Source: Tubulanus polymorphus
Lineage: Eukaryota; Nemertea; Palaeonemertea; Tubulaniformes; Tubulanidae
DNA length: 64,000 nucleotides
Reading direction: 5' to 3'
Assembly: GCF_964204645.1 (NCBI RefSeq)
Contig: NC_134027.1
Location: 22,804,485-22,868,484 of the forward strand
The notes beneath the pieces were generated by a model. That model did not search any database. It was not told the origin of the DNA and saw nothing but the letters and a program-made list of their open reading frames with translations. Positions 5,622-64,000 of this stretch are shown piece after piece (the stretch's first letter is position 1; every line of letters begins with the position of its first letter). Both the position numbers and the translations under genes were made by a program.

Positions 5622-5852
5622 TCATCGATCATCAACAACTCTGATCTGCTTCTCGAGTTCTTCGCGTTGTCTGCGTCGTTCGGCCTCTTCTGCTTCGAAA
5701 CGAGCGACGAGTTCGGCTTGAACTTGCGGCTCAACGACGCGACCGAGTTCTGAGTACGTCGGAAAATCATTCAAATCAGCACCGATGAGAACACTAGGGG
5801 GCGCTTGATGTCCGATGTTGTTAACGACGTGTAGATAGATCGGTTCTTTTAT
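5622..5852 (-). CDS. Gene A last exon: C-terminal tail, PIYLHV and TYSEL
   Basis: Encodes 76 residues and a stop. It contains PIYLHV and, about 30 residues later, TYSEL, both fitting Yxx-hydrophobic motifs bound by SH2 or AP-2 proteins. A charged helix follows (EEAERRRQREELEKQ). Homologous last exons end genes B (25762-25544) and E (62163-61945) with over 80 percent apparent identity, so this is the shared C-terminus of the A/B/E tail type. The acceptor CTTATCAG precedes an in-frame ATA AAA. Confidence 0.85.
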   Translation of the reverse strand: MKEPIYLHVVNNIGHQAPPSVLIGADLNDFPTYSELGRVVEPQVQAELVARFEAEEAERRRQREELEKQIRVVDDR

Positions 5853-8800
5853 CTGATAAGAAAAAATCATTCTATTTTTCAACAAATTCAAATCTTTTTC
5901 TACTTTTCTAACGAATAAATGCGTAGATTTGCCCCATAAACGTTTGATACTAAACCATTATATTCGAAATAAAACGTGGTCGATTTTTTGGCGACAGTAA
6001 AAATGCCGTCATATAACAAGAATATTTTAATAAACACGACGAAAATAATGGACAATTTATTGTTGTTAGATCTACACTTCATGATCCAGTTCCAATTCAA
6101 TTCAATTCAATTCAATTCAAATTTTATTGCTCACAAAAAAGTAATTTGCATAGAGCAAAAAGTACAGATTTACAAAAATTGTTTTTAACAAAATGGAAAA
6201 TAAACAATAGTTCAAAAGTATTTCAAGCCTTTTCTAATTTAAAGAACTAGTTGAGAAGTTGAGACGAGTTCTTCCTGTAGAGTTTATTCACGATTATGTG
6301 TTAGAATTTGACTCATGGTTTAAAAACTATTTATCTTAAATATACTGAGCCAAATTACCTAACTGACTGTTTTGACTTGGGTCAAAGTTTGCAATAAGCG
6401 TTTCATTGGGGACCTGTGGCACTCGGTCTTAGGTCCTCATAATTAGTTCACTTTCTATCAATAAACTTCGAACTAGATTTTTAGGCTCCCGAATACATAC
6501 ATATTAATCACAGGATCCATCATATATACCGTACATGAATTTTTGATTTTTCTAATCAGAAATGGGGAAAATGGGGAACTCGCAACGCCAGAGCTACAAC
6601 ATTCTTGATTGCCACAGTACGTAGGCCTAGCGGTCCGGGTACGCCATTGGTTAGTTTTCATTTATATTGATTTATCTGAGGGTAAATTCTTACTGAAATG
6701 ATGATCATAGAAGACATTGAACGCAGAATACCCGAGTAGCTACTCGCGAACCTGGCGGATCATTGCATGCCATAAGAGGAATCCTCGACTGCCGCAGTAG
6801 CGTTTGTAAGTCCCCATTCGAGCAAGATTATCAAATTCAAATCAATTAACCGTTCAAATGAAATGACTGCCTGACTGGTTTTGATATTTACCTCATCTGC
6901 GTTGAACGCAGGGTTGTCGACACCAAAATTAACGTACTTAACGTTATCACCATCGCCATCGTGGTGAATGTCTTCATAAGGATTCTCTTCGTCAACTGTT
7001 TGATATGGATTTTCGTCTGAAATCATACGCGTAACAACATTTAGTGAATTCAATGTATATATAATCTATGGCACGTTTTAGTTCACTAGTCTTCATATGG
7101 TAATTGAAGGTTTCATCAAATCTATACACTCTTCCCTAAAGAGTGAACATCGTTAAGCCTGCCCGTAATAGTGATTGGATCTTTATTCCACGCCCTGTTT
7201 ACTACAGTAAATCCAGCACCTTATCTGTATCGTTCCCGGCATGTGCGGTGGGTTTGCAAGGGATGCATAACTAAATTCAAATCGGAAACAACCAATCGAA
7301 TCAATGAAATAGATAAGAGGGAAAATTCCCGATTTCAAGATCAGATTCTGGAGTTAAGTCTACATCAGAACAGTAGTAAAGGAATGATAATGTCATGAAA
7401 AACTTGTTTGGAAGTGCATGCATATTTTTATTCCAACGAACAATGTACTGAGCCGCCGTTCTCACAGTCTATCCCATTATACTGAACCACAGGCAAACAA
7501 TCAAAAACCTGTACAAAGTTATGGTTTATGTTCGAGACAATAGAGACACCAGTCACCCACGCCTGCATGGCACGTTTGAGGAATATGCTTTAATTTTCCA
7601 TTTTAGAAACAGTATTTTAGAGTTAGCGTATCGGACATAGTATAGTCTGATTTTCCCGTTTGGAATCGATGTACATGTAGAACTCACCCATTTCATAGTT
7701 CACATTCTTCTCTGCTTTTTTCGCCTTCTTGCCATCACGTTTTTTATTTTTATCGACTTGCGCGTACAAAGGTGAGTAGATTGGACCAGTAGCTTCTGCA
7801 CCACCCATGACTGCAACAAACGATTCAATGAAATCATGTAATCAACGAAAACATTCACATTCCCGATAACAATAGCAATTCATGCAGTAACATGATTTCA
7901 ATGATCGAAGAAAATCATGATTAGTTTCCTAACTGCGTTCTTTCATTGAAAGTGACTTTATCGATTCTGTAGAATTATCACAAATTTTCATTGACGACAA
8001 TCATCGTGTTCTCAATGACTTCAACGAATCGGTTAAAATCATGATTAGTTTCTAATGGAAGCCTCTCGGCTACACCGTAGTCTATTCACAAATACTGGTG
8101 GTAACATGCAAGACAAGATTGCTTTAATCCCTAATCTAATACACTGTAAATGGAAAAAATCGTTGTGAAAAATATTTTTTGATTTTGTTCATTTATGTTA
8201 GTTGTTTTCATGAATCGATATTTGAAAGGTTAGAGATTTTTCCATTTCCACGGGTGTATCGGTAAGTTATTGATAAATAAAGGGCACTTGCAATTCCGTT
8301 ATTCTAAAAGCATTTCACTTCCATATCATCTTGTTTACCTTGATTCTGAGATCGTTTTTTTCGTTTTGTCAACTTGTGCGTAAACCGACTATCCTGAAAA
8401 TGAATATGAAAATCTATTTCGATTGCCCCTTATGATTCTCTGGCCATTGATCGACAATTTATTTTATTTTTTTTTCAAGATTTCAGATTAAGCCATCAAA
8501 TATCTGATCGCCGTACACTACCGAACATTGCCGAACACCGCCGTTCACTTCGATCAGCGCGTTCAGGAATATCAACGAACATAATCTGAATTCACCAAAC
8601 GTTAAATCAACCTTTGACCTAATCGTTAGATCGATATTCATGGCGATCAAAGGACTAAAAAATTGAGATTATGAATATCATAATTGATTTGCGGCTCGGA
8701 TATACTCGGTGGTTTTCGGAAATATTCGGCGATTATCGGTCAGTTCAAAATTCGAAACGGGTTTCGTAGCATAAAGATAAACAACTCTCACCAGTTTTCT

Positions 8801-11800
8801 TGATTTCATCATCAGAAACTACGAATATAGAAATGAAACTACTTAAGTATTAATGTATTAGTTCTCATTCTCTAGAAATCAAAATATCCGCGATGCAGTA
8901 AGACGTAAATCCTAGAAGGAATTTTCTAATAATTTTCGTATAAATATTGCTAGCGAATTTACAATTCTGCCATTCTACTTCTTACAAGTAGTTCGAATAT
9001 CGAGAAAATATCTTTATTTTTCGAAAGAGACGTGACTATATGCGGATATGGGTCGACTTTTGGGTTTTCTGTTGACTTGCGCGTACACGTCACCTAACAC
9101 GGAAAGAAAAACAAATATTTAGAAAAATCAAATTCAAATTGTACAGTTGAGATGAAACAGTTGAAATGGCTAACTTTACCTGTAGGCCCGGCTACATGTT
9201 CACCAATATCGCTGTTTGGTGGAGGGACTGAAGCTTGACTGTAAAAAGGGAAAAATATATTTATGTAGCGGGATATGAACGATTGGAAAAGGAATCTGTT
9301 GTGTTTAGATTAAGCTAATCGAAAAGGGTAGGAAAGTTTCTATTATCGTATTGTTTTTCGAAAAATGAGATTAAGTCAGACCAACCTTTTCATGCGATAT
9401 TTAGTCCAGATCCATCGACGCCTTTTCACGACGACGAGCACAATGACGATGAGGGCGACCAACACGACACCTAAGACAACACCTCCGATCAATCCAACAT
9501 TGGTAGTAACTGAGCGGATAAGAAAATGGGGCAAGCTCTGATAAAAGCAAGTGTCAATCCGTCTGGTTTTCACCAGACACAATTTTCGTTGAAAATAAAC
9601 TAGAAATGTACTGAAAACAATAGATATTTATCTATCTTATGCATTCATCAATTTTTCAGTTTATCTTTGTACTCAATGTTTGGATCGTGGTCAATTATTT
9701 AGTTTATCCAGGGAAGTGTGATGACACTTCCCTGGTTTATCTTTATATCCAACGCTCGGATAGTGGTTTGCCGCGGCTAACATTACTGGGTAGCTCAGTA
9801 AACTCGCACATCGGAACGGCATGTGTAGCCGCTCTATAGCAGCCAGCAGGACTCGAACCCAGCACTGGTATGTGAACAGCAACTCGATCACTGACCTACG
9901 GAGTACGCTTCAAACTATGAGCGGTAGTTTGAACGGTTCGAATCCCGGGATTAATACACGATTATCATAAGACGCTTCATTAATCCGCGGTTACATCGAA
10001 TAAACGAGACAACCACTGAATGAAGGCGTGTGGTTTTAAACGGATCACCGCGGTCAAACGGTGGATTAACCAAAAAGCCGTGGATTAAAGAAACCCATCA
10101 ATAAAGGCATTTGGATTTTTGTTCATAACGTCGACCATGTGACCAAACAAAATGGCGCTATCGTGTGAACGAGAATTCGCTCTTGTCGCGATTATTCATT
10201 TGCTACTAAAACGACGCCGTCGTCGACGACGAAGAATCCACAAGAGGAATAGAAAAAAGTTAATGTTATATCATCGGCGATCTTACCACCGCCCGAGCCA
10301 ATATAGGATTTAGGAAGCAAGGATATCATAATTCGACAGTAGCCTCTTAAACACAGAGCAGAACTCTATGTATACCTGGCTGGAACAGAAATATGTAGCC
10401 TATCTACCTGGAATTTCAATCTGATGGCTCAGAATCACGTCGCTACTCTCAGTTACAATCAGTTGGTAACTGTATGCTCGATCGGGATCGATTTTAATCT
10501 CGATACTAATCGGATCACCGGTAGTTTCTTGTTTCGTAGAATTAAAACATTCGTTCGTATTTTTGACACAGTATTTCACGTAGACGCTGTAATTCGACGG
10601 AAACGACGACAATTTTATCAGGATACTATTTCCTTTCTGTGTTACTGTCGCTTGCTCCAATGCGGTGTTTATAGCGCTTGGAAAAGCTGAAAAAAATGAG
10701 AAAAAATAGAAACAATCGTGGCCATCATCTATTCGGAACGAGTGCGTACCGGAATCCGATATTAGTATCAGTCCTGAAAATGCCGACATCTTTGAAAACA
10801 CAATGATGATATCGGTGAAATTAAACGATAGGATCATTCGGAGCAGCTCATCATCGACGGTAACAAACAGTTGAACCAAATGAGAAACAGGGGCCGGTTG
10901 CATAGTCATGGCTTAGACTTAAGACCAGTCTAAGACCAACTTAGTTCTATAGCCAATCTAACAACTTAAGACCAGTCTTAAGATTTAAGACCACTTTTTG
11001 ACTGAAGGACTGTGCAACTGGCCCCTGAAATATTCAAGTAATCTACAGCGCTGAAGAATGATAATTGACTCGTGTATCTTATGCTCTCCAATTAATGTGA
11101 CTATAAGAAAGTTCAGTATCTTACCATTTGTTCTAGTTGTAACTATATCTGTGAATGGACTTGTATTAACACCGGGATTTAAGTTGATACTTTTCACTTT
11201 GAACTGATAATCAGTTGCTGGTTTTAACCCGGTTATTTTTGTTTGCACCAGTTTTCTATAACCGGGGTCGGGTATTTCAGCTTTATTCACGAATTGTGTA
11301 ACACCCGAAGCCCTGTAACTGACGGTGAACGTTTGTTTGGAATCTCCCTCGATTTCTGATACCCAACTCAGCGTGACTGATACCGCTGTCTTAGCAATAA
11401 CTGTCAGATGTGATGGTGTTTGTGGAGGTCCTGGAATAAATAAACAAACACACGACGATATTCGTAGGATAAGTCACATGCAGCGTTGAATAGGATTCCA
11501 CGTTCAGCAAAATGTAGTCTGATATAAACATTGTGTTGAGGTTAAATCTGAAGCCTGTGCTCGGCACTCCTTCAGTTACACGACACTTTGGAACGACTAG
11601 AAGAAGTTTCTCTGAAAGAATTTTGGGTTGTAATCGATCAGCGTGTTTCAGAAGAATTTCTAGAGGTGGTAAATTATGCATGTTAGGTGTGCAATTCTAA
11701 TGAAAATTATTCGAAATAGTAAATCATTCTTACTAGTGTCTATGAATTTCAGTGTTATTTCTACGCTACCAACTGAATTCTTGAGTCTAGACGAATAAGA

Positions 11801-14521
11801 TCCATAATCAGACGCCTGAACTGATTGTATGATGACGTTCCACTGCGTTAAACTGGTACTTTTCATTACATGTCTGCCATTGGTTGAGTTATGACTGCAA
11901 TTTAAAGTTGTCGCTGATGGATTCGCGTCGAAGTTAATCGTAAATTTTGCAGTTTCTTCTATTTTCGCGGCAACGGGTTCGACATTTTCTGAGAGCTTAG
12001 GTGCATCTATTGCAAAAGGAAACATGTTTGGTGAAACTGTTTTGAACCGTCTGAAAACGATTCCAATAAAAAATAGCGAGGTTATCTGGACCCAATAAGA
12101 TGTATGTATTCATTCTCTGCTGCCTTTCTAAATAAAGACTTAGATTGAACATCGACAGTAGTGATATAACTGGTAGTAAAACCTCCTGTATTTGTCACTG
12201 TGCATCTGTATTCTCCAGTATCAGTTTTTGATAAATTGTCTAGTGCAAGATGATCATTTCCAGATCTTGCGATTAACTCCCATATACTCGGTACAGTCGA
12301 GTTGAATTGTCACTTGTAAGTGTAACTATCAGGGTTTCCACCAGATGGTTCACAGTTCAACCGAATTGAATTGCCTTCTGTAACTACAGACTTTACTGGA
12401 GTCAGCGAAACAAAATCAGCCGGATCTGTAGAATAGAACCAAGTACTTATTATACAAGAATAAAGAATATTGTGAAAATACAACTTGTTTGATACAATTG
12501 AAAGAACGATACTTTAGGTGTTTTGAATAACGGTTAATAACGCGCTAATTTACACTTACACAATATAGACAATGTCGTGGAGTTGGTGACACCATTAACA
12601 GGATGACTGCTCTGATAAGCTGTACATCTATATTGTCTTCCATTCTTACCCTTATCAGTTGGAACTACAAGACTACTGGTAGATATCAGTCCACTGTGGA
12701 TTACTGCTGGATTGGGCGAAATATTTATCCACGTTGTCGTGCCAGAGCTGTACGCCCACATAATTGTAGACACCGGGTTTTGGAGTCAGTTATAGTCAGT
12801 CACGTGAAAGGGATGAAAAGGCGATTCTTTACTTACAGTGAACGGTTATTGTTGTGTCATTGTTAAGATTTCCAGTTTGACATCTGTATCGAGCCTGATT
12901 CATAGTTTTAGTTGCAGTAATAGATACTGTACTATTAGCCACAAACCCGTGATTGGCGGCACTTGTTTGACTCGTAGCTGGTTGAGAGACAAGTAGTGTC
13001 CATGTTGTAGAGGAATATATGAACCACTGAATCTGTACAGCCGGGTTTGACGAGTCAGTTCTACACTCTATCTGTTGATTATCGTTTACTAATACATAAT
13101 CTGCCGGTTTCTTATCAATTGTCAACTTTGTTGCTTGAACTAAAAATGAATTCATTTCTATTGATGTGGCTGTTTTCGACAATACGAGGAGCAATTTTTG
13201 TTGTTATTATTAAATGAAATGAACCATGGAAATGCACATAATGATTACTTCTACTGAAACTACTGTAGTTTTGGACGAAATGATGGATCATCGTAAAAAC
13301 GTTACATGTCCAACACTTACACAATATAGACAATGCAGCCGTGGAGTTGTCGACACCATTAACAGGTTGATTGTTCTGATAAGCTGTACATCTGTATTGT
13401 CTTCGATTCTTATCCTTATCAGTTGGTACTACTAGACTACTGGTAGATATCTGTCCGCTGTGAGATCCGGTTTTATGATTTACTTCTGGGTTGAGTAAAA
13501 TATACATCCACATCGTCCCAGAGCTGTACGCCCAAACAATCGTAGACACCGGGTTACTGGAGTCAGTTGTACACGTCAGAGTTTTCGATGTACCGTGAAC
13601 AACTGGACCGTTTGGAATTTCAGTCAGTGTAATTGACTCGGGTGGAACTGTAAATGAACATTGAAAGCCATGATTTATACTTCATTAAACGTCACGTGAA
13701 AGATATGAAAAAGTGATTCTTTACTTACAGTGAACGGTAATTGTTGTATCCTTGAAGAGATATCCAGTTTGACATCTGTATCGAACTTGATTCATAGTTT
13801 TAGTTGCAGTAATAGATAATGTACTAGTAGCCACAAACCCGTGATTGGTTCCAGTAGTTTGAATCGTAGCTGGCTGAGAGTCAAGTAGTGTCAATGTTGC
13901 AGAGGATGTGAACCACTGAAACCATTGAATCTGTACAGCCGGGTTTGACGAGTCTGTTTTACACTCTATCTGTTGATTATTGTTTACTAACACATAATCT
14001 TCCGGTTTCTTTAGTGGCATTGTCAGTGTTGTTGCTGAGACTAAAAAGAAATTGATACCATTTTTGTCCAAATTCAGGGGGTGGGGGACGTTGACGTTGC
14101 AAACGGCAGAATAACATTCACTTCATGAGAATAATGAGTGATTTGTACACTATCTGATCTGTAGTACTTCTGTTTTTGAACCAAAGCGTACCTGAATAAA
14201 CTAAAGAGCATAACGATTTATTTATTAACTATCCGTAGTACTTACAGGTGACATTCAATTTGACTTTATTAGAAATCACTGGTATCGGTATACCAGCCCC
14301 AGTAGCTGTACATTGATATTCTGCCTGGTTATCTGTTCTAGTGACGGATGTTGAATATTTCAAAGGGCTAACTCCCTGTTTGACAGTGCTGCCCCCTGGT
14401 GTTCTAGTTATGGCGAGGTTCGGTACCGGGTTACCGCCAGTAGTTGTACATGTTAAATCAACAGATGTTGATTCCTGAACGGATGACGTCGGTCCTTGTA
14501 ATGTTACACTAGCAGGCGGGT
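5622..14521 (-). CDS. Ig/FN3 transmembrane receptor, gene A (5' end not found)
   Basis: Multi-exon type I receptor of the immunoglobulin superfamily; ligand unknown. In transcript order the exons (minus strand) are: Ig-D 14521-14246, Ig-V 14040-13729, Ig-P 13647-13321, Ig-V 13139-12837, Ig-Am 12006-11734, FN3 11430-11125, FN3b 10686-10408, TM 9509-9386, then tail exons 9238-9180, 7810-7688, 7016-6892 and 5852-5622 (stop). All junctions are GT-AG. Ectodomain exons are phase 1-1 and the tail phases join in frame. A P-type fragment (about 12790-12560), a Y-type exon (12425-12144) and two extra YAQV tail exons look dead and must be skipped for an open frame. No signal peptide, Q or S exon is visible upstream, where retrotransposons lie, so the gene may be 5'-truncated. 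Am has lost a core Ig Cys (SYSSR where paralogue B has SYSCK). It could be functional with a distant 5' end, or a young pseudogene. Confidence 0.75.
6087..6190 (-). mobile_element. Probable retroelement 3' tail with (AATTG)n
   Basis: Pentamer run (CAATT repeated from about 6090 to 6115) followed by an AATAAAA-like motif read on the minus strand. The arrangement resembles the 3' end of a LINE or SINE ending in a microsatellite tail, and is similar in style to 52419-52600. It lies in the last-intron region of gene A. The family was not identified. Confidence 0.4.
6892..7016 (-). CDS. Gene A tail exon with NPYQTV, NPYEDI, KYVNF, NPAF
   Basis: Acidic cytoplasmic exon starting DENPYQTVDEENPYEDI and ending DNPAFNADE. 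Phase 1 in, phase 0 out. KYVNF fits the YxN motif recognised by Grb2-type SH2 domains. NPAF is the A version of the NPAY PTB-type motif kept in B and E. Confidence 0.85.
7688..7810 (-). CDS. Gene A tail exon with SPLYAQV motif
   Basis: Encodes a basic tail segment with PLYAQVDKNKKRDGKKAKK and a final VNYEM. Phase 1-1, flanked by TTGCAG and GTGAGT. The homologous exon in E is 63380-63276. Gene B has lost it. Confidence 0.85.
8339..8393 (-). pseudogene. Decayed YAQV tail exon in gene A
   Basis: One frame reads SVYAQVDKTKK, clearly homologous to the other YAQV exons. The phase needed to join the flanking exons places a TAG just before it, and the alternative acceptor inside GATAG gives the wrong phase. 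It is probably not used. Confidence 0.6.
9025..9093 (-). pseudogene. Probable decayed DVYAQVN tail exon in gene A
   Basis: Acceptor GTGTTAG then G-DVYAQVNRKPKSRP, matching the intact E exon 63711-63634. The E exon ends at a clean GT donor. Here the homologous donor is missing and the frame runs into TAA. The 3' boundary is uncertain. Confidence 0.55.
9180..9238 (-). CDS. Gene A juxtamembrane tail exon
   Basis: A 59-bp exon, phase 2 in and 1 out, encoding a Pro-rich linker (ASVPPPNSDIGEH). Exactly 59-bp homologues occur in B (26823-26765) and E (63861-63803), which fixes the boundaries. Confidence 0.85.
9386..9509 (-). CDS. Gene A transmembrane exon
   Basis: Encodes TTNVGLIGGVVLGVV and a long Val/Leu/Ile stretch, then a basic stop-transfer (VVKRRRWIWTKYR). 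A single-pass helix with the basic side facing the cytoplasm. Homologous to 27126-26973 in B. Confidence 0.9.
9708..9735. repeat. Perfect 12-bp-arm hairpin
   Basis: CCAGGGAAGTGT and ACACTTCCCTGG are separated by GATG. A short direct repeat (TTATCTTTRTA...) flanks it on both sides. It lies in the gene A intron between TM and FN3b. Confidence 0.8.
9838..9905 (-). mobile_element. tRNA-like SINE fragment
   Basis: The minus strand reads GTAGGTCAGTGATCGAG, then GGTTCGAGTCC about 30 bases later. These resemble the A and B boxes of a tRNA-derived Pol III promoter. No complete cloverleaf or CCA-end stem could be drawn, so this is a SINE head or tRNA relic, not a tRNA gene. Confidence 0.4.
10408..10686 (-). 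CDS. Gene A membrane-proximal FN3b exon
   Basis: A 279-bp phase 1-1 exon encoding about 93 residues with a beta-sandwich pattern (YSVYVKYCV, YSYQLIVTESS), probably a divergent fibronectin III domain. Same length as 27530-27252 in B. In C only a broken relic remains (52134-52262). Confidence 0.75.
10888..11027. mobile_element. Foldback MITE, GGGGCCGGTTGC type (1)
   Basis: About 140 bp with imperfect inverted ends: CAGGGGCCGGTTGCATAGT left, ACTGTGCAACTGGCCCCTG right. The interior repeats TTAAGACCAGTCTAAG-like palindromes. It inserted into the intron between FN3b and FN3. A similar element lies at 36260-36392. Confidence 0.75.
12144..12425 (-). pseudogene. Dead Y-type Ig exon in gene A (stop plus lost donor)
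   Basis: Aligns end to end with the intact Y exon of C (50147-50422). The codon for the core Ig Trp (TYTWQ in C) is TGA here (TYK-stop-Q), and the donor GT is CT (TTCAATCTAAG). Either lesion would exclude it from a functional transcript. Being phase 1-1, it can be skipped without a frame change. Confidence 0.85.
12560..12790 (-). pseudogene. 5'-truncated P-type Ig exon in gene A
   Basis: Retains the 3' part of a P domain (IMWAYSSG... to TLSI) and its GT donor. It lacks the first third with GPVVQGTSKTL, the first core Cys and the acceptor. A one-base deletion lies near the break. The sequence joins directly to the intron that follows the V exon. Confidence 0.8.
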
Positions 14522-15480: not shown

Positions 15481-15484
15481 CATA

Positions 15485-18400
15485 ATAAAAGAAAAAAAAT
15501 AATAATAATTGTCTCTTACGTAGAGCGCTATTCCAGGGACGAGGTCCTTGTTCACTGCGTTGTCCCTCTATGCCCTCACAAATAAAAAGGACTTCAGGGA
15601 AGGTTTGAACTGATCGATATTGTCTATAAGTTTGATTTTGTGTGGTAACAGATTCCAAAATTTAGCACCATACACTGTAAAGCTCCTATCACCAAGACAT
15701 GATTTTGTCCTCCTTAAATCAACGACTAAACCAGATGACGATCTGGTGGTTCTTGCGGACTGTTTCAGAACAATGAGGTCTTGAAGGTATTTAGGAGCCG
15801 CACCATGGATACACTTAAATAATTGAAGTGCAATCTTATAGACAATCCTTTCTCTGACTGGCAACCAGTGAAGCTCATGTAATGTTGGTGTGATGTGTTG
15901 AAACTTCTTAACCTTGCACACAACTCATGCAGCTGAGTTTTGCACACTTTTGGAGTGGAGCTAGCATGTTGCTAGGAAGGCCAGCTAAGATCCCATTATT
16001 ACAGTCGATTCGCGAAGTTACAAATGCATGTATCAACCGCTCGGTACTAAACCTGTCCAGGTATTTTCTAAGGCGGCCGATACGGTACAGATTTGCGAAC
16101 GCCGATTTGCAAACAGACTTTACATGTATGTCTATTTTCACATGTTTATCAATAATGACACCGAGATCTTTTACACAGTCTGACGTTGGTATCCAAACAC
16201 CATCAACACAGATCCCAGTCACGGAACCGATTCTACGCGACGATACTAGATTAACGACATCAGTCTTCGGAGCATTTAGGGATAGTTTATTTTCGAACAA
16301 CCAACTCTTAATTTCACCGACGCAGTATTCTACACTCGAAACCATTTCTATGGTCTCTTTCCTATCTCCACACTTTGCAGCAGACTCAAGTTGATTGTCA
16401 CCTGCATACAATTGGTACTGGACATCATTTTCACGCATCACATCACCTAATGGGATGGTATAAATGGTAAAAAGTATAGGTCCGAGCACGGACCCCCGCG
16501 GAACTCCACACTCTACAGGTGTAGGACGTGAACATTCATTAGCAACCATTACAGACTGATTCCTCTTAGACAGATAAGAGGCAAACCACTGTAGTACAGA
16601 GTCCTTCATGCCGCAGGATCTCCTGAGCCGATTTAACAATATTCCGTGATCGACCGTATCAAAAGCAGCAGACAAGTCCAATAACACCAATAGGAACTCG
16701 TTGCCTTCATCAAGAGAACACAAAATATCATTCATGACACGAAGGAGAACTGTCTCTGTGCTATGGCCTTGTCGGTACTAAGCCGATTGATTGGGATCAT
16801 AAAGACAGTTTGAAGATAAATGCCTCGTGAGGCGAGACGCAATTATCCGCTCGATTAATTTCGACAGGTATGTTAGATTTGAAACTGGACGATAATTAGC
16901 GAGAACTCGCTTGTCCAATGTAGGTTTCTTTAGAAGTGGCTTCACTAAAGCAGACTTCAATGCGATTGGCATTCGACCAGATGATAATGATGTGTTTACT
17001 ATTCGCATAAGAACAGGCAACAGCAGATCAACACACTTTTTTAGTAGACTTGTGGGTAATAGGTCAAGGGAGCACCCCTTTGCCGGTAACGAGAGAATCA
17101 AAGTCCTAATTTCAGCCTCTGACGCTGGACTAAAATCGGAAAGCGGCGGCACCTCAGCGACTGGTTCAGTCTACCGGTAAACCTTCATTGAGCTCTAGAC
17201 GGATCCTGCCTATCTTCTCGTTGAAGAATAGACTAAATCGTTCAGCTAACTGTTGTGGATCAGAATGATCTGGCAGCGGGGAGATAGCATTCTTGCCAAG
17301 GAGATCACTAACTATCCGAAATAAGTCTTTGCTACAACTAGACGTGATCTTGCAACTATAAAAATCTGTTTCGCTTTCTCGACCAAATGGCAAACTATAT
17401 TCGACTGTGCACGATAGAGTTGGCGATTTATCACAGTGCGATCCTTTCGCCACTTCCTCTCAAGATTACGACGAATGGCTCTAGCTTCGCTGATCTCAGG
17501 TGCGAACCACGGAGCTTTATCCCTCACCACAATAGTACGAGATATTTCTGGAGCATGCTTATCTACTAAAGGTCTCAGGATGTTGTTATATTCATCCACT
17601 AACTTATTCAAGTCACTACTTGGCGCTGTGATGAGATCTGATGACATGATATCTTCACCGAACTGCACTGAGTCGATTTTACCAAGCTTTCTGTAGGCAA
17701 CTTTCTTCCTCTCTGGAGCAGGTTTACTGAGATTAAATCCACAGTGCACTGGAAAATGGTCAGATTGTAGAGACGGCTCAATGAGAACATCCCTAATCAA
17801 TGATGGATCATTGTCTCTGGTTACGAGTAGGTCAATAATATGACCACTAACATGAGTGCTTTCCAAAAACATGCTGAGCGGCACCGAAGGACTCGAGGAG
17901 CTGGTTATATTTTATCACTCCGGGATCTGCAACCTTGTCCATATGAATATTGAAATCCCCGGTGATGATAAAATGCTTATAGGTGGCAGCTACTTTTTCC
18001 AAAAGGGAGGCAAATTCATTGATGAACTCACTAAGGAATCGCGGGTACGGGTTAGGTCTGTATACAATGACTATGTAAATCGATTCCGACTTATGTAAAA
18101 CAGACAATTCAAGGCACTCAAAGAAACTATATAGAGAACTTCCATGATGTTTCACTTTCATGCCCCCACGGACAAGGGCAGCAACTCCACCTCCACGCTT
18201 TGATGATCTAAACTGTTGCACCAAAGTTAAACCTTGCAGTTGATTTGTAGTGCTTGATATAGTCACATTGTCTGTTTCCCACCACTGAGCAAAGTCTCAG
18301 TGAGAATAAAGATATCAGTTCTTCTATCTATAATTGATTCACACAATGCGGCTACTTTCTGTGTTATTGATCTAGCATTCCAGTTAGTCAGTTTTATTAA

Positions 18401-18600: not shown

Positions 18601-18864
18601 AGTCTATGTCCTTGTCACAAATATGGCTGCCATTCTAGAATCCAAAATGTATTCCAGAAAAACTGCACCACACAAACAGACAGTGTTCTGATATGAGCTG
18701 AGTTGTAGTAGTTATCAATTCCAGCTCTTGGACACTTCACAAAAATTGTCAGACAGTTTATCACTAGTTCTGTAACCTAACTTAGTAAAAAATTTGCAAT
18801 ATCCTGGAGAGACTCAAGGAGCAGCTACCAAGCGCTACACTTGACACTTGACACTTGACCAATT

Positions 18865-52100: not shown

Positions 52101-53752
52101 TTTAAAATTCACCCTGGTGGGGGCCTTTGATGATTGCACGGATTAAATACTCAAATCGTAAACCCCTTTAAACTCCATATTGAAGCAAGTCGGATAACAA
52201 GAGAACGAAATCTTGTTCTGGTAAAATTGTCGTCCTTTCAGTCGAAGCGTCTACGTTATAATAGCAGAATATTGTATGTTTTTGTGCGACGCAGAAACGG
52301 GAATTTTATTTTGAACTCAAGATAGTGATTGATAGTTCAAAACAAAGATAATGAAGATTTTATATGCCGCAGCTTTTGCGACGTTTCAGCAAACCCATCT
52401 TATACTTCTACAGATTTGATTTGATTTGATTTGAACACTTTATTTTTCAAATATAATTTACAGCATAGTGTACAAAGCATAATACAAAATACAGTAAATT
52501 AGACCTGGAGGGGCCTGTAGAAACTAAGGAATAGTTTGTATAAAACAGGTCCCTCAAAAGAGAAAAAAAAGAGAAACGCAATAAAGAAAATAATATGCTC
52601 ACAGTCAACCCTTAACACACAAAATGCAATCAAAGTAAAGTAATTCAAAAAATTCAAATTATATTGAAATTACAATTACGCATTTTAAACGCCATTTCTT
52701 CATTCAGCTGATGACAAGTCAACGTCTCCGCTGATAATTGTCGGCGTTGTTTTTGGTATCATAGCGTTTGTTCTGATCGTGATATTATTGATTGCACTTT
52801 TAATAAAACAACTCAGAAACGGAGGTCTCGTCTTCATGAACAGATCAAGTGGAATGTGAGTGTTCATTAATTAAATCATTTGCTGTCCATTTGTTTTGCA
52901 CCAAGGCCCCCTCTCTTTGGATAGGATGTTATAAACAAATCATTGTCTCCTGCTCATTTATACTAGATACGGACCATCAAGAAATGACTGAGATATAGTC
53001 ATATGGGTTAATTGCAAAACAAGTGGATTTATTATTGTCTTCAAGCCACGAAATGGTAGGTTAAAAGGCTATTTAAAAAGGCACAATACCTAAACATGGG
53101 CTCTGAAAATATTCGTACTTAGTTACTCTTATCTCAATCGGTTCGAATCCCATTATTACGCCGTAGTTTGAATTTGTGAAAATATCTTTCTTTCATTTCA
53201 GGACAAATAAAACTAAAGATTCAACAACAGGTAAAATTGTTCAAAAATACATGTACGAGAAATATGAATTCGTTCTCCCCTGCTTCCGAAAACTGTATAT
53301 AATTGATAATATAATACTGCAATTGGATATTGTTGATAATTTGTGTTTTCATCATTTCAGTATATTCTAACAGCAACGAACTCAAGGACACAGATTCACG
53401 TATGTACATCCGGTACATTTTGAACTTATCGCGGCTTTCTGTCAATCATTTTACACATATATTGAAAAAAAAATATTTCAGGTGATTACGCCGCGGCGAC
53501 GCCGTATGTAAATGTAGCTTTTTGTGGTAAGTATTCACAAAAATTCGAGCGTATATAGTTCTATAAACATCTTTTAAAATTGTGTTGATGTGATCGTAAA
53601 TTTTCTCAGCTCCGCACGCATCCCTTTCGGGAAAGTAACTGAACATATATCGCGTTCCATTCATTTACTACGTAATATTGAACCTATTTTTATCTTCATT
53701 TAAAGCAGAGATCGAGCCCGAACCAAACAACTATGAAGAAGTCAGGAACTAA
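46148..53752 (+). CDS. Ig/FN3 transmembrane receptor, gene C, alternative tail
   Basis: Exons: 46148-46202 (signal core NCLTLTVVLLLMMCTGIN), 46577-46924 (Q), 47337-47612 (S), 48760-49086 (P), 49260-49562 (V), 49646-49972 (P), 50147-50422 (Y), 50827-51096 (Am), 51598-51903 (FN3), 52708-52855 (TM), 53202-53230, 53361-53399, 53482-53526, 53709-53752 (stop TAA). All are GT-AG and phases agree throughout, giving about 930 residues once a start exon is added. The ectodomain has seven Ig domains and one FN3. TM and tail differ from A/B/E: helix after STSPLIIVGVV, then a short tail with TPYVNVAF and NNYEEV. YVNV fits a Grb2-type YxN site and YEEV a general SH2 site. Polyadenylation signal AATAAA at 53836. 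Transcribed divergently from gene B, with two GPCRs between. Confidence 0.87.
46577..46924 (+). CDS. Gene C distal Ig exon (Q type)
   Basis: 348 bp, phase 1-1, V-like Ig domain with DAGEWSC. By eye it differs from the gene B Q exon at about one base in twenty, much closer than the membrane-proximal exons of the two genes. Confidence 0.9.
47613..48759. other. Gene C intron where a D-type exon is absent
   Basis: B has a D exon after S, whereas C goes directly to P. I saw no D relic here. The region has a G-rich stretch (about 48145-48180) and otherwise unremarkable AT-rich sequence. Confidence 0.5.
52134..52262 (+). pseudogene. Relic of FN3b exon in gene C
   Basis: GAACGAAATCTTGTTCTGGT and the following LVKLSSF-like frame match FN3b of B (GNLVLLKLSSFPSKYSVYV). 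The continuation is frame-shifted (SKRLRYNSR) and no acceptor or donor frames it. The TM exon follows FN3 directly in the spliced gene. Confidence 0.7.
52419..52600 (-). mobile_element. Probable retroelement 3' tail with (AATCA)n
   Basis: GATTTGATTTGATTTGATTT followed by a minus-strand AATAAA (ACTTTATTTTTC on plus) and about 150 bp of non-coding sequence. Typical of a 3' end with a microsatellite tail. Inserted between the FN3b relic and TM of gene C. Confidence 0.45.
52708..52855 (+). CDS. Gene C transmembrane exon (different type)
   Basis: DDKSTSPLIIVGVVFG and a long hydrophobic run end in LIKQLRNGG. No resemblance to the WIWTKYR stop-transfer of A/B/E. It joins in phase 2 to the 29-bp exon 53202-53230. 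Confidence 0.85.
53482..53752 (+). CDS. Gene C final tail exons with YVNV and YEEV
   Basis: Exon 53482-53526 encodes DYAAATPYVNVAFC and exon 53709-53752 encodes EIEPEPNNYEEVRN and TAA. The acceptors and donors are clean (TTTCAG, GTAAGT, AAGCAG). AATAAA lies 84 bp after the stop. Confidence 0.8.
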
Positions 53753-56213: not shown

Positions 56214-57201
56214 CTATTCAAGAATTGTTCATCTTTGACTAAATTATTGTGGGATTTCTCTCGTTTTTGAAATATCTTTAAAATTTATGATACAGAAGGG
56301 TTTGTTAGTGATTGTGGTGTCATGTCTAATGATGTGCAGTGGAATTATCGGTAAGTCAACACCTGTATAACTACAGAAACAATGTAACATCATTAATAAA
56401 ACCAGGTTTGTAACTGTGTCACGGGAAGAAAGTGACATTTTATTGATTTAAACTTATCATCCTGAAATGATATCGTGATGATGAGACATTCTAAAATATC
56501 ATGTAAACTTTATTGAAGAATAGCATGTTGGCTGATTCGAACCAAATTAAGAAAAATAAATTCCGTGCAATACGCCATGCTAAAATTGCCAAAAACGAAC
56601 ATTGACGCCAGAAACGTGCCAAAACTAGCGCAGAAACGCGTTTAATTTCCAAAGCGAAAACATTGACGCAGATACGAAGCAATACGATTTTCGCATGGCG
56701 TTTTGCACGGAATGTTTTTTTTCCTTACTTGGCCCGAATCAGCCGCCTTACGTAAGGATATTGAAAACTTACGAAACAAAAAGAGAAAAGCGAGTAATTG
56801 GATATCTAGGACTAAAACCTTGGATGTGAGTAATATGGGGTTTTCATAAACTTTGCAACCGTATTTATATTGGGGTGTAGAAATATATGTAAGTAGGTAG
56901 TGCATGTCTTTCTTTGCTGTAGAAGGGACACGCAGAATAATACTTTAATTTGTAATACAATAAAATGACAATAGATTAATAAACTCTGCTATAAGCTAGC
57001 TGGTAATTCTATATACCGAATATAGGCAACAAAATGCTCAACACTTTTTATGTTCTGGTTAGAAGTAACTAAAATCATTTTTAATATATGCGAATTATAA
57101 ACGTCTTAATGACAACCATTTAAGTACTGTCTGTTTCATACATTCAAGAATTGTTCTGACTTATGAGATTGAAAATTCATGAATGGAAAATCATTTTGTA
57201 G

Positions 57202-57551
57202 GAGAGCAGCAGAACTGTATAGACGCAGCAGATACGACACTCACGGCGGTTGCAACACCAGTTGATGTAAAACTAGGTGGCACCACTGTCGTACAATGTC
57301 AGGTTTCCCCAACCAGTAAAGATTTCTGCGGTCACAGAATAACATTGAGTAGCCCTTCAGGACAGTTTGAGTATGATAAGACAAACTGTCCTCATGGAAC
57401 TATTACTGCTCCCCGGTACACTGGACAATGTGACGTCACAGCTGGACGTTATGGTTTGCGTATCAATAATGTACAAATTGCTGATGCTGGAGAATGGTCA
57501 TGTGACTATAAAAGCGTTTTTGCAAATAGTAAACAGTAATAACGGTATTAG
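57202..57551 (+). pseudogene. Gene D Q exon with terminal frameshift
   Basis: Compared with C, AATACTAAAACAG is AATAGTAAACAG here, one A short. The frame then reads AAA CAG TAA. The splice donor after GGTATTAG is intact. The change is in an A run, where sequencing error is plausible. Confidence 0.75.
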
Positions 57552-58194
57552 GTGATAAACGATTTAATGATAGATCATTTCCAATCGTGTTCAGTAGTTA
57601 AGAATCATTTTCTAATCACTATGTATTCGAATATATCGCGAAGAATTACTTTGAAGTTTAATCCCGATGATGAAACGTATACCACATTTTACTCATAGTC
57701 CATTCATCGTGCCATTGTGGTGTATTGATTCATAAACTGTGATGTATGTTGATGATTCGTTTCAAACAGTGCCAAATACTATACGTGAATCAAGGAAATA
57801 CATTAGAAAATACGCTATCAAATATACATTGCATGGTTTCACATTTACAGCACCCCCGAGTGGACCAGTTTTAACATCTCAACCAAACACCACCACAAAC
57901 AACATCGTCAGAGTACAGGAGAATTCACAATTAACAATCACATGTGACGGTTCACAGTCTGGAGCTACAGGACTGACGTATAAATGGAGTGGTGTCAATC
58001 TATCTGGACAGTCTAATAATAAACTCAGTTTTACACGAATCAGTAAAACTGATTCAGGTGTTTATACGTGTACAGTATCGAATATAGCAGGATCAGTTAC
58101 TGGAAGAATTACTATCAATGTTTTATGTGAGTATTACATAAAAATTAAATAAATAATTAATAAACCTTTAATATTAACAGCTTCATCAGAATTG

Positions 58195-58342
58195 TCCCCG
58201 CACTGATCACAATTATCACATTTCAAATTTTCATCAATTCACCACTGATCGCCAAATTTGAAATTTTTTCGCACTGATCAACATTATCACATTTCAAATC
58301 TTCGTCAATTCACCACTGATTGTCACATTTGAAATTTTTGTC
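58195..58342. repeat. 72-bp tandem duplication
   Basis: Two copies (from about 58200 and 58272) of a unit with GCACTGATCACAATTATCAC-like start and CAATTCACCACTGAT. Intron of gene D. Confidence 0.8.
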
Positions 58343-58789
58343 CCCTGCCACATGATTTATGTTTACGATAAAACATCAGACACCTTTAAACAAACATTGA
58401 TAATAGATAATAATGTTGTGTAAAATGTATAATTCTATTTTGTCTAACGTCAGAAAAACATTACATACTAGGCGTTTTCATATCACGCAGTTCGTAATTG
58501 CAATTTGTTAAAAATAGAGTTCATTTATCAAATCTAAGGGTTATCGATTTTGGTAGAAGGACACATAACGCAGGCATTGCCGTTATTACGAAGTGCACCA
58601 ATATCGAAGTTGAAGTCTTAGTATTTATCCTCATCAAAAGATGTTTTTTGGCGACAATCATGATCAGGCGCAAAGACGATCCAGACATATATATTCCATT
58701 TAACTGACGGTCTTTTAACCGTTCGCTATTCATCTGATTCTACTCTGCATCTAGTCTATTCGTCACGATGATGATTGGCTGGGGTGCTC

Positions 58790-59010
58790 ATCCGTTGACT
58801 TAACGTGTGCAGCTACAGGGGGTAACCCGGAACCAAACCTCGCCATAACTAGAACACCAGGGGCAGCACTGTAAAACAGGGAGTTAGTCTTCTAACATAT
58901 TCAACATCCGTCACTAAAACAGATAACCAGGCAGAATATCAATGTACATCTACTGGGGCTGGTATACCAACACCAATGATTTCTGATAAACTTAGATTAA
59001 CTGTCAACTG
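58790..59010 (+). pseudogene. Truncated D-type Ig exon in gene D
   Basis: Keeps LTCAATGGNPEPNLAITRTP and the end with GT donor. The first 65 bp and the acceptor are replaced by unrelated sequence. A G is missing in the ACACCAGGGGCAGC run, followed by an in-frame stop change (GTCAAA to GTAAAA relative to gene A). Confidence 0.8.
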
Positions 59011-60465
59011 TAAGTATTGTAGATAGATACATTACTCCTTATACTCATGAAGTTAATGTGATTCTGGTTTTGACTAAATTTTGTTTCGCCAATATCCACA
59101 GATTTTAACAATATTGACAACAATAGTTAAATCTTTTAGTTCAAGCAACATCACTGACAATGGTGAAGAAACCGGCAGATTATGTATTAGTAAACGATAA
59201 TCAACAGGTAGAGTGTAAAACTGACTCGTCAAACCCGGCTGTACAGATTCAGTGGTTCAAATATTCTTCTACAACATGGACACTACTTGACCCTCAACCA
59301 GCTACGAGTCAAACTAGTGCAGCCTATCACGGGTTTATGGCTACTAGTACATTATCTGTTACTGCAGCTAAAACCATGAATCAAGCTCGATACAGATGTC
59401 AAACTGGTAATCTTTACAATGATACAACAATTACCGTTTATTGTAAGTATAGATAACTTCTTCCTTGGATACGAAATCACGTTTCAGATTTTTTTATATT
59501 CGTTTGTTTTCCCTGAAAGTCTTATGAAACAAGAAGCGCATATTACAATGTTTTTTTTTTTTAATAGTTCCACCAGAGTCAATGACACTGACTGAAATTC
59601 CAAACGGTCCAGTTGTTCAAGGTACATCAAAAACTCTTACGTGTACAACTGACTCCAGTAACCCGGTGTCTGTAATTGTCTGGGCGTGCAGCTCCGGGGC
59701 GACAACGTGGATACATATTTCACCCAACCCAGCAGTAAATCATAAACCCGGATCTCACAGTGGACAGATATCTACTAGTAGTCTAGTAGTACCAACTGAT
59801 AAGAATAAAAATGGAAGACAATATAGATGTACAGCTTATCAGAGCAGTCAACCTGTCAATGGTGTCACCAACTCCACGACATTGTCTATATCGTGTAAGT
59901 GTAAAATAGCGCACGTTATGTTTTGTTAAAAAGTCGGAAAGTCTGCATTTCCATGGTTCATATGATTGGGTCTTGACCAATTTTGCTGAAGGAATTATCA
60001 ATAATAGCAACATCATTGGGAATGAATTAATCGTTTTAGTTCAAGCAACAACTCTAACAATGGCGAAGAAACCAGCAGATCATGTATCAGTAAACGATAT
60101 TCAACAGATAGAGTGTAAAACTGACTCGTCAAACCCGGCTGTACAGATTCAGTGGTTCACATATTCCTCTACAACATGGACACTACTTGACTCTCAACCA
60201 GCTACGAGTCAAACTAGTTCAGCCAATCACGGGTTTGTGGCTACTAGTACATTATCTATTACTGCAACTAAAACTATGAATCAAGCTCGATACAAATGTC
60301 AAACTGGAAATCTTTACAATGATACAGCGATTACTGTTCACTGTAAGTATAAATTACTTCCTCCTCGGATACGAAATCACGTTTCAGATTTTTTTTTTCA
60401 CCTTCATTCGTTTTCCCTGAAAGTCTTATGAAATAAGAAGCGCATATTTCAATGTTTATTTGAAG

Positions 60466-60662
60466 TTCCACCAAAGTCAATGACACCGACTGAAATTCCA
60501 AACGGTCCAGTTGTTCAAGGTACATCAAAAACTCTGACGTCTACAACTGACCCCAGAAACCCGGTGTCAAGCATTGTCTGGACAAACAGCTCTGGGGCAA
60601 TGATATGCTTCGTATTTATTTGCGTTTCGGTCTCAGTTTACTTATTTAGTGGTATTTATTGA
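60466..60662 (+). CDS. Gene D last P fragment with hydrophobic C-end
   Basis: Continues in frame from a normal-looking phase 1 acceptor: EIPNGPVVQGTSKTL, VWTNSSG, then about 20 hydrophobic residues and TGA. The hydrophobic end is not part of a P domain and arose where homology to P ends. It could act as a membrane anchor or GPI signal, or be meaningless read-through. Confidence 0.4.
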
Positions 60663-61345: not shown

Positions 61346-61944
61346 AAATAGCAATATTCGTACACGAGAAAATTCATTACAAACTAATTTTGTTTGAAAA
61401 AAATGTAAAATATTCAAGGGTAAGCTTATGCGGCAATAGATTGAGCAACGCGTCCTTCAAAGTGGGTTAAACACTAATATTAGACCAATGTAACATACAA
61501 ATTACTCGTACAGAATACACTTATACAATTTACATAACGGCATAAATAATTGTGAAAAACAACGATAGCCATATAAAAAACCTCCACCAAATGTTTACCT
61601 TGATAGGACGTACATTAGTAAATAAACTTCTTCGACACGATTAATTTCGGTTTAATTTTGAGCTTATTATTTGAAATGAGAACTGTAGAGCCGGATCCGG
61701 AAATCGCTCTGTTAGATATTGAGATTATGCTAGGGACAGATTGAGCATGGGATCAAGGTTGGTTCTGAGAACGAAGCATGTGATCGAGGCCTGAGAAAAA
61801 CCCCTGCCGTAACCTCGTCAGTCTTATGATATCAGTGATAGCATGGTTATACCTACAATCCACAGACCTCACTTAACTAAACCTCGGATAAATCTGATGA
61901 ATTACTCCCAGACTGAACACAGTGGAAAGGACAATAATCGACGA

Positions 61945-64000
61945 TCAGTAACTCTTTTTCTGCTTCTCGAGTTCTTCGCGTTGTTTGCGTCGTTCGGCCT
62001 CTTCTGCTTCCAAACGAGCGACGAGTTCAGCTTGAACTTGCGGCTCAACGACGCGACCGAGTTCTGAGTACGTCGAAAAATCATCGAAATCACCGATGAA
62101 TACACTAGGGGGCGCTTGATGTCCGATGTTGTTAACGACGTGTAGATAGATCGGTTCTTTTTTCTAAATTGAATATGATAAGAAATGAATTGGCTTTTTA
62201 GCATTTTCTGAATAATGCAGATTTTGCTACAAGTTTGGTTTTAACTAATGTATTCCAAGTAGAACTACTTTGTTGGTTTTTGGCGATAGTAAAATGCCGT
62301 TTCAAAAATGGAGTCGTCAAGGACTGAATGTTTTAATCAACAAGTCAAAAAATCAAAGAAGTTTCTTTTACTGCTGTTTGATATGTACTGCAAGGATCCA
62401 GTTCTACATGATTTGACTACTGAGCAAAAATCTAACTAAAAACTACGAAACTGGAGTCAATGTTGCAAAAAATAAAACTGTATGAAATAGAAATAGCCGT
62501 GAATAATAAGATATTGATTAATATCTACCTCATCAACAATATAAGCTGGATTGTCGACAACACAGATTGCGAACTTCTGGATTTCCTCATCGTTATCGTC
62601 ATCGACGTCTGGGTGATAAGGATTCTCTTCGTCACCGACTATTTGATAGGGATTTACGTCTGGAAATATGCGAAAACATTCTGCGAATTCAATATACAAC
62701 CCGTGTAACGATCCATAAAACATGCAGTTCGCTTAATTCCTTCTCTGAAAATCAAAGCTCGTCGTTCAAAGATCATTATATATATTTTGTAACGGAAATT
62801 TAACCAAGTTGTTTGAAAATGAATATATCAAACGATCAATCATACGTATACATCCTTGCACGGAAATGGGTTCTGCCCAACGGCTACTACAGATTGGATC
62901 ATCGTTTTGAAGCATAATTTCCTGAGTGTACATTCAAACGCTAGAAAACGATTGATGACGACATGAAGGAATTTGGATGTTGTCACTGTATGCATTGGGA
63001 AATCGGGAACCGCAGGCACAATATGCCTGGAACATTTGAGTATATATTTCCAATTACGATTTTAGAAACATAATTTACGGTTTAATCGCGCATCGGGGAT
63101 ATAACGAAGTACCTATCTTTCTCATTTGAATCGGTTTCGAACTCTGGTGGCGACAGAGTTTCTTGGTCGCAGATTCTTCTCTGGTCTCTCCCCATTGGAA
63201 AAACAAACATCGAACCCGTTGATGATGCACTGCATGGCGCTCAGTGGGTCGAGGGAATAAAAGTTTCGAACTCACCATTTTCGAATAGGATATTCTTCTG
63301 GGGGTTTTTCGCCTTCTTGCCATCACGTTTTTTATTTTTATCGACTTGCGCGTACAAAGGTTCTGCATTATCCACCGAACCTGATGAAAAAATACGGCAC
63401 GTAAAAATCTAAGGAACGTAATCTGTGTTGTCATTTTCGCGTAACCGGGCAAGCGATCGAATTTGAACCAAGCACAGTAAATTGTTATCGGAATATTCAT
63501 CTACAACCTAGACCTACCCTCCTCGCTCAAACATTTGAAACTTTACACAGCTTCACACTCCAAAAATACAGAAGGCGGGTGACTCCAGGCCGCACATGAA
63601 TACCCTAACGAGTGAACAACATTGTAATATTACCGTCATTGGTAGTGACGTGATTATCGTTAGCTGTCGGTCGACTTTTAGGTTTTTTGTTGACTTGCGC
63701 GTATACGTCGCCTAACACGGAAAAAAAAACAAAATATTGGAAAAATTTCATATGGAAAATGCATTAGTAGAGGTGAGAGCTATTCGAAATGGCAAATCTT
63801 ACCTGCAGGCCCGAATATATGTCCATCGGTATCGGTATTTGGAGAAGGGACTGAAGCCGAACTGTAAACAAATATGGCGGATCAGATTGGAATCTACTGA
63901 CATTAAGTTTAGCAGATCGAATAGGAAAGGAAATTACTAGTAATTTTATGAAATATCAACCTTTGCGCGCGATTTTTTGTCCAGATCCATTGACCGTCTC
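61945..64000 (-). CDS. Ig/FN3 receptor gene E, cytoplasmic tail (runs off window)
   Basis: Exons on the minus strand: 64000-63961 (stop-transfer DGQWIWTKNRAQ, continues past the edge), 63861-63803 (59-bp linker), 63711-63634 (DVYAQVNKKPKSRP), 63380-63276 (PLYAQVDKNKK), 62659-62529 (NPYQIV, DNPAYIV), 62163-61945 (PIYLHVV, TYSEL, stop). All phases join and the frame is open, so this is the most complete version of the A/B/E tail, with two YAQV exons. The ectodomain lies beyond the window. Confidence 0.85.

Follow-up and report, generated by a model that had tools for sequence, protein, structure and literature searches.

What kind of locus joins one type of immunoglobulin-superfamily (IgSF) ectodomain to several unlike cytoplasmic tails, in genes that alternate between strands? 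We address this question for a 64,000-nucleotide stretch of Tubulanus polymorphus contig C3 (NC_134027.1:22804485-22868484; hereafter the window), which forms the left end of an IgSF gene cluster of roughly 410 kb. Searches covered the 267.8 Mb and 77 contigs of a single assembly (GCF_964204645.1), representing one haplotype, and an exon map seeded with the window's own exons covered 264 kb, that is, the window and 100 kb on each side. We lean, by a modest degree, towards the answer that these are fast-evolving type-I membrane receptors whose gene cluster works like a paired-receptor locus.

The distal V-like exon (Q) has 40 matches genome-wide at E <= 0.001, of which 30 reach E <= 8.7e-38. 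Most of them (36 of 40) are on C3, with two on C9 and two partial ones on C57. Those on C3 comprise a main cluster (22.80-23.21 Mb), a second cluster of three-Ig genes (24.89-24.93 Mb; one gene read, locus L067) and a few strays. Some Q copies differ little or not at all from one another, as in the pairs C3:23075590/23098227 and C3:24908506/24924616. At the left edge of the map, the first homologous exon is a tail exon (window coordinate -6523), and it is for this reason that we place the window at the left end of the main cluster; an outlier match (45%) to the membrane-proximal FL domain lies about 190 kb further left of the cluster.

An earlier note, made from the letters of the window, had described five related genes in mixed orientation, one domain per phase 1-1 exon, a different domain complement in each gene and many relic exons, all of which our exon map bears out. 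The genes are A (minus, 5.7-14.5 kb), B (minus, 25.5-36.7 kb), C (plus, 46.1-53.8 kb), D (plus, 56.3-60.6 kb) and E (minus, tail at 61.9-64.0 kb). The expected phase, with AG and GT in place, is seen in 83 of 93 full-length domain matches across the 264 kb; the transmembrane (TM) exon has phase 1-2. The locus does not end at position 64000, as that note had it, and runs on for about 345 kb to the right. Nor is it the single-copy gene of stable architecture that the note had named as its opposite: within this genome there are 40 V-like matches in varied architectures. We found no account of such a receptor family in a spiralian in the open literature searched, subscription papers and preprints being outside the search. 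The spiralian setting agrees with ten ordered Hox-type homeoboxes on contig C6 (5.32-5.63 Mb), which we take to be lab, pb, Hox3, Dfd, Scr, Lox5, Antp, Lox4, Lox2 and Post2 and read as a spiralian set. The genome gave no match to mitochondrial COX1. It gave none to GFP, an annelid haemoglobin linker or a molluscan haemocyanin domain either, but these three negatives carry no information, as the control genomes also stayed without a match.

The gene plan runs from a start exon and a signal exon through the V-like Q, Ig2, a variable run of IgA, IgC and IgB, and sometimes IgD, to an inner part made of IgE, FN3, FL, the TM segment and the tail. Gene B is the complete example, with 13 exons encoding 908 amino acids from the start codon at 36742 to the stop at 25544 and no internal stop:

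36722-36742, minus: gene B exon 1, with start codon, MKFQRVQ and donor GTGAGT
36095-36149, minus: gene B signal-peptide exon
35503-35850, minus: gene B distal V-like exon (Q)
33790-34065, minus: gene B Ig2 exon
30259-30534, minus: gene B IgA exon
29807-30139, minus: gene B IgB exon
28808-29080, minus: gene B IgE exon (I-set)
28087-28392, minus: gene B FN3 exon
27252-27530, minus: gene B membrane-proximal FL exon
26973-27126, minus: gene B TM exon
25544-26823, minus: gene B long cytoplasmic tail (exons 26765-26823, 26505-26632 and 25544-25762)

Gene C is open for 901 amino acids from its signal exon to its stop, without an intact FL; its start exon upstream was not placed:

46148-46202, plus: gene C signal-peptide exon
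46577-46924, plus: gene C distal V-like exon (94% identity with its gene B counterpart)
47337-47612, 48760-49086, 49266-49562 and 49646-49972, plus: gene C Ig2, IgB, IgC and IgB
50147-50422, 50827-51096 and 51598-51903, plus: gene C IgD, IgE and FN3
52188-52259, plus: gene C FN3-like (FL) exon remnant
52708-52855, plus: gene C TM exon
53202-53230 and 53706-53752, plus: gene C short tail, ending NYEEVRN-stop

Pfam supports the Ig and FN3 domains, and the spliced gene B protein exceeds the cut-offs for Ig_3, I-set, V-set and C2-set_2. The V-like domain matches V-set in all 26 scanned copies (E <= 0.01), the gene B copy scoring under the curated Pfam cut-off, and has six cysteines that are invariant across the 26 copies of our alignment A2. 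That alignment leaves out gene D (frame break), L020 and L054 (identical or near-identical to others), L065 (divergent), L066 (stop) and L061 (alignment falling short of its end; this copy is the plus partner in one of the divergent pairs). An AlphaFold model of the V-like domain has a mean predicted local distance difference test score (pLDDT) of 73, with the five models spanning 28 to 73, and a predicted template modelling score of 0.68. Foldseek pairs it with antibody V domains (E 6.5e-5 at best), the template modelling scores being a modest 0.38-0.52 among the 50 matches listed. FL finds no counterpart in Pfam at E <= 0.01, and no PDB entry matches it with an E value below 0.87. The best PDB sequence match that spans several domains is the adhesion receptor SYG-2 (E 5.2e-16, query 82-342); titin fragments score higher, but across one or two domains, and other matches are the adhesion and guidance proteins contactin, RPTP, Robo and Dscam. 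Judged by these matches, the parts are ordinary IgSF adhesion-receptor parts, and it is their arrangement that is unusual. A dense FN3-exon array elsewhere (C1:8389034-8477077) is the region of a very large FN3-repeat gene unrelated to the receptor cluster.

Related ectodomains do sit on different tails, of which we find three types, and, beyond anything in the earlier note, tail class follows strand. Eleven matches to the C-terminal part of the long tail occur in the genome, every one on the minus strand; C3 holds 10, of which the weakest reaches E 1e-4, and C9 holds one. A degenerate 21-base pattern for the short tail ending YEEVRN-stop has eight matches, all on the plus strand and all in the main cluster. 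The tail end of the second cluster, GEEYEEI-stop, has six exact matches, again all plus; the reversed-pattern controls for both short ends returned none. Pairing each intact Q of the main cluster with the first tail downstream of it gave the long tail to 9 of 11 minus copies and YEEV to 7 of 10 plus copies, and no copy received the opposite class. All six pairs of divergent Q exons that neighbour each other within 20 kb combine a long (minus) with a short (plus) tail, their Q exons being separated by 4.0 to 11.1 kb; one pair has its YEEV exon 19 kb from the Q exon, with only Q and Ig2 seen between. Plain tandem duplication was rejected as the source of the cluster's order, because strands alternate and there are six divergent pairs despite one 41-kb tandem block.

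The long tail of gene B has seven tyrosines, an NPAY motif and one sequence, STYSEL, resembling an immunoreceptor tyrosine-based inhibition motif (ITIM). STYSEL fits the ITIM consensus in tails B and 113, one fit among seven tyrosines being weak. The short tail of gene C has a single tyrosine, and the tyrosine-rich tails of the earlier note are a property of the minus-strand genes only. The six YEEI ends (C3:24892647-24935664) are identical across all 24 bases and their V-like exons differ: in these genes the tail is conserved beneath a changing tip. The gene on C9 has an array of roughly 30-base repeats in the intron before its tail (L068 1004-2900), open in one frame (EWVSNTLYR/S). FL may also be linked to tail class. 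Genome-wide, all nine minus copies of the main cluster are 72-95% identical to the query, and 9 of 11 full-length plus copies are 57-69% identical; this is only suggestive, because the query consensus was built mostly from minus copies.

Have the ectodomains followed their tails? Genes B and C, which stand head to head, have exons in common but not introns, and similarity stops near the exon ends. Their synonymous distances are 0.114 in the V-like exon and 0.081 in Ig2, versus 0.444 in FN3 and 0.667 in IgE (outer versus inner, P = 5.6e-9). We then compared copies by tail class, using 19 of 26 V-like and 11 of 16 Ig2 copies, the rest being without an assigned tail; the long-tailed minus copy on C9 was left out along with its contig. 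Mean V-like distance was 0.166 within and 0.169 between classes (eight long, six short), and 528 of 2000 permutations gave a difference at least as large; Ig2 was likewise unstructured by tail (706 of 2000). Because Q exons fail to sort by tail, the pairs have not merely been copied as units. Strand was also rejected as a marker of ectodomain lineage, with eight changes on the V-like tree against 8.9 in shuffles, and five on the Ig2 tree against 3.5.

To the right of the window, a tandem duplication that spans about 41 kb and carries one complete long/short gene pair offers a second view of exchange:

97.5-122.8 kb and 138.2-164.0 kb, window-continued coordinates (window 39-64 kb plus L031-L040): the two duplicated blocks, either a real duplication or an assembly haplotype

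Between the blocks, 782 of 17389 alignable noncoding sites differ (4.5%), compared with 331 of 4955 exon sites (P = 1.8e-9 versus noncoding) and 99 of 1325 synonymous exon sites (P = 4e-6 versus noncoding). This excess of synonymous divergence points to import from other paralogues into exons rather than to selection alone. Taken at the level of sequence, the two outer domains are mosaics made by exon-limited exchange.

These outer domains also carry positively selected sites. We compared codon site models M1a and M2a with code of our own that kept the branch proportions of the FastTree tree constant and used F3x4 frequencies. M2a was favoured for the V-like exon (likelihood ratio statistic, LRT, 27.9, P = 8.7e-7; omega 3.4 at 5% of sites) and for Ig2 (LRT 20.5, P = 3.6e-5; omega 3.3 at 17% of sites). 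No positive class was found by this comparison for FN3 (LRT 0.08, P = 0.96), FL (1.2), IgE (3.4) or IgC (3.6), and FN3, with a nonsynonymous to synonymous ratio (dN/dS) of 0.29, is conserved. In recombinant null simulations without a positive class, few in number, none of 16 for the V-like exon (maximum LRT 10.3) and none of 24 for Ig2 (maximum 12.1) reached the observed values. Within the recent block duplication, Ig2 has dN 0.095 versus dS 0.041; its nonsynonymous divergence differs from noncoding divergence at P = 1.8e-4 and from its own synonymous sites at P = 0.10.

Turnover is visible within the window itself. Three of its five genes (A, D and E) are damaged, and stops, frame breaks and remnants occur in A, C, D and E, with a further V-like relic in an intron of gene B. 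No distal V-like or Ig2 exon of gene A, and no TM or tail of gene D, was found in the 264-kb map. The ectodomain of gene E lies to the right of the window, up to 68720, and its FN3 exon is cut off and has a stop.

34425-34516, minus: V-like exon relic within a gene B intron
5706-14521, minus: gene A, a degraded long-tail gene
14246-14521, 13729-14034, 13321-13647, 12837-13133 and 12558-12779, minus: gene A IgA, IgC, IgB, IgC and IgB relic
12145-12426, 11734-12006, 11125-11430 and 10408-10686, minus: gene A IgD with stop, IgE, FN3 and FN3-like exons
9379-9627, minus: gene A TM-containing open reading frame
9154-9234, 6883-7017 and 5706-5804, minus: gene A tail exons
56287-60620, plus: gene D, degraded
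56287-56350, plus: gene D signal exon
From 57202, plus: gene D V-like exon, with a frame break near 57533
57851-58126, plus: gene D Ig2
58788-59011, 59146-59442, 59577-59894, 60046-60342 and 60474-60620, plus: gene D IgA with a frame break, IgC, IgB, IgC and IgB relic (cut off)
61948-62115, 62520-62660 and 63768-63857, minus: gene E tail exons, the first holding the STYSEL part
63961-64108, minus, chromosome-continued coordinates: gene E TM exon, which starts inside the window

Other elements lie among these genes. Two kinds of fragment resembling long interspersed nuclear elements occur on the minus strand between genes A and B, at 15908-18634 (RVT_1) and 21294-23359 (recognized by eye), and occupy the place expected for the missing distal exons of gene A. 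Left of gene A, at 3345-4523, is a 76-base satellite with a 429-base higher-order unit. Three single-exon genes for rhodopsin-class G protein-coupled receptors (GPCRs) stand between the receptor genes on the plus strand, at 19677-20738, 40355-41413 and 43302-44288; they are 87-88% identical to each other (tblastn), and the first matches Pfam 7tm_1. Matches to U5 small nuclear RNA lie on the minus strand, each near a GPCR copy (full-length at 39152-39270 and 42173-42291, partial at 20830-20873), as if a GPCR-U5 unit had been copied within the cluster.

How far does this evidence carry a paired-receptor reading? The genes for Siglec-11 and Siglec-16 stand head to head, separated by about 9 kb, and gene conversion maintains their similarity (PMC5701461). 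The cluster resembles that arrangement in its head-to-head IgSF genes (4-11 kb apart here) with a V-set tip, a common ectodomain and different tails. Two features of paired receptors, alike ectodomains on two tail types and close genes exchanging ectodomain sequence, are present, and head-to-head genes whose common, diversifying tips are exchanged over two kinds of tail are the genetic hallmark of such receptors. Unlike vertebrate paired receptors, it comprises dozens of genes with many Ig exons, an FN3 domain and a membrane-proximal domain not described before, and its short-tail partner has its own tyrosine and an uncharged TM segment. Because the host is a protostome, the origin is almost certainly independent.

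Several observations weigh against this reading. The tail-strand rule is partly pseudo-replicated: blocks holding whole pairs were duplicated, and the tail and pair counts are therefore not independent events. A single ITIM-like match among seven tyrosines is unsurprising by chance at about 1 in 20 per tyrosine (our rough estimate), and the motif of gene A, PTYSEL, falls outside the ITIM consensus. The charged TM residue that would engage an adaptor with an immunoreceptor tyrosine-based activation motif is absent from the TM core of both short-tail genes examined, gene C and the plus gene at window +117 kb, so a DAP12-type activating partner, as in KIR and SIRP, is not indicated. When the second cluster is treated as a third class, some structure does appear, its V-like exons standing partly apart (17 of 2000 permutations), and the FN3, FL and IgE trees hold too few plus copies to tie the proximal half to the tail. 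IgA (LRT 7.3, P = 0.027) and IgB (LRT 8.3, P = 0.016) are weakly positive, uncorrected for eight tests. The whole V-like exon has dN/dS 0.63, with the proportion of nonsynonymous differences (pN) below that of synonymous ones (pS; confidence interval, CI, of the difference -0.122 to -0.030), and the whole Ig2 ratio of 1.21 comes with a pN minus pS not significantly above 0 (CI spanning 0). Plain dN/dS was set aside as insufficient evidence of selection, neither whole-exon average being significantly above one. Several genes of the family are broken.

The earlier note had inferred a rapidly turning-over recognition family and had named strong purifying selection in the distal domain as contrary evidence. 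That signal is there in part, in the whole-exon ratio and in pN below pS, but so is a class of sites with omega above three. A multigene family with turnover, a mosaic history and selected sites in two outer domains stands; its recognition or immune function is an interpretation. A recognition role with two signalling outputs is most likely, by analogy, and is favoured by the parallels with Siglec-11/16 genetics, with the ITIM-type motifs of Hydractinia and Botryllus and with an oyster receptor. The oyster receptor CgIgIT2 has five Ig domains, a tyrosine motif and a reported response to bacteria (PMC11999971). It is, like the receptors described here, a spiralian protein with several Ig domains, a TM segment and an immunoreceptor tyrosine motif; it is described as one five-Ig molecule, and the comparison is by description only. 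That the two outputs oppose each other we only infer, because the ITIM-like match is weak and the short-tail TM segment is without the classical charged residue.

We can sketch how such a locus might work. Each receptor consists of a variable V-set-like tip, Ig2, a variable Ig run, FN3, FL, one TM segment and one of three tails. Matched ectodomains would bind one class of fast-changing ligand, from which the two tails would draw two tyrosine-phosphorylation outputs. The long tail may be a scaffold with the ITIM-like STYSEL and NPxY/F motifs and the short tail a lone Src-SH2-type site; the balance of both would set the response of the cell, and exon-limited gene conversion would keep partner specificity matched during change. 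The most specific form of this proposal is possible and no firmer than tentative: an independently evolved protostome paired-receptor system of head-to-head genes with interchangeable, diversifying V-Ig2 tips, in which a seven-tyrosine tail of inhibitory or phagocytic type would face a single YEEV tail of Src-SH2 type, with a satellite three-Ig YEEI cluster, and in which gene conversion would match partners against a changing ligand.

The strongest rival, still unlikely, is a clustered code for adhesion or cell identity in nerves or epithelia, similar to nephrin/SNS/SYG-2 or Dscam, whose outer domains would bind homophilically or in pairs and whose tails would lead to the cytoskeleton. Nephrin, SNS and SYG-2 have many Ig domains, FN3 before the membrane, a TM segment and a tyrosine tail. 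Our receptors have this layout too, and the PDB matches led by SYG-2 point the same way. Unlike those proteins, however, they have a six-cysteine V-like tip, a large cluster, a variable number of Ig domains and alternative tails. Fast turnover, broken copies, exon-limited exchange and selection on the tip are unusual for a wiring or adhesion set in which all individuals must match. The presence of two to three tails, unrelated to each other, on a single type of ectodomain also speaks against this rival.

A strict allorecognition complex of the Hydractinia Alr or Botryllus fuhc type, with the V-like tip as a polymorphic self label, is more doubtful. Alr-type ectodomains are without FN3, and an FN3 exon is present in genes A, B and C and their neighbours. 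Clustered IgSF genes, a variable V-like tip and tyrosine tails all fit such a complex. The Hydractinia Alr family is reported to have 41 members in a single genomic complex (PMC11999971), and our cluster shares with it many IgSF genes in one complex, a V-set-like first domain, further Ig domains, a TM segment and a tyrosine tail; it differs in its FN3, long Ig arrays, strand-linked tail classes and six-cysteine V-like domain. ITIM-type motifs are reported for allorecognition receptors of both Hydractinia and Botryllus (PMC12065747). The same source describes Botryllus fester co-receptors as a large one-locus IgSF family with V-type and C2 Ig domains, a TM segment, long ITIM-type and single-tyrosine (YxxI/L/V) tail variants and neighbouring gene pairs, all as here; fester co-receptors have a Sushi domain where ours have FN3, and the fester pair is a receptor and a co-receptor, whereas both partners here have one ectodomain type. 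There is no sign that the host fuses or is colonial, and two highly polymorphic controlling genes cannot be singled out from one haplotype. The likeness to Alr proposed by the earlier note is loose, a matter of layout with FN3 domains added here; as a working analogy, the long/short head-to-head pairs are nearer to vertebrate paired receptors such as Siglec-11/16.

A largely neutral birth-and-death array with little special function, inflated by uncollapsed haplotypes in tandem, is improbable. Some copies are nearly or fully identical, the noncoding divergence of the 41-kb blocks could be allelic in a highly heterozygous animal, and the damaged genes of the window would fit. However, the splice phases and open frames conserved in many diverged copies, the complete gene B, the purification of FN3 and the tail rule all need long-lived function. 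A gamete-recognition or other reproductive receptor family can be largely set aside, since positive selection and copy turnover are usual in reproductive proteins but long tyrosine tails and paired tails are not, and nothing in the sequence points there.

We therefore return to a paired-receptor-like cluster. If partners with one ectodomain type truly signal in opposition, unrelated parts would have given rise, outside the chordates, to the balance logic of natural killer-type receptors. The locus would then be a compact genetic setting in which to study how matched specificity is kept amid sequence diversification. It would also give spiralians, in which few loci of this kind are known, a candidate system of receptors for self/non-self or for pathogens. 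Even without opposite signalling, the combination of tails linked to strand and an ectodomain that is exchanged provides a clean example, from nature, of gene conversion limited to exons.

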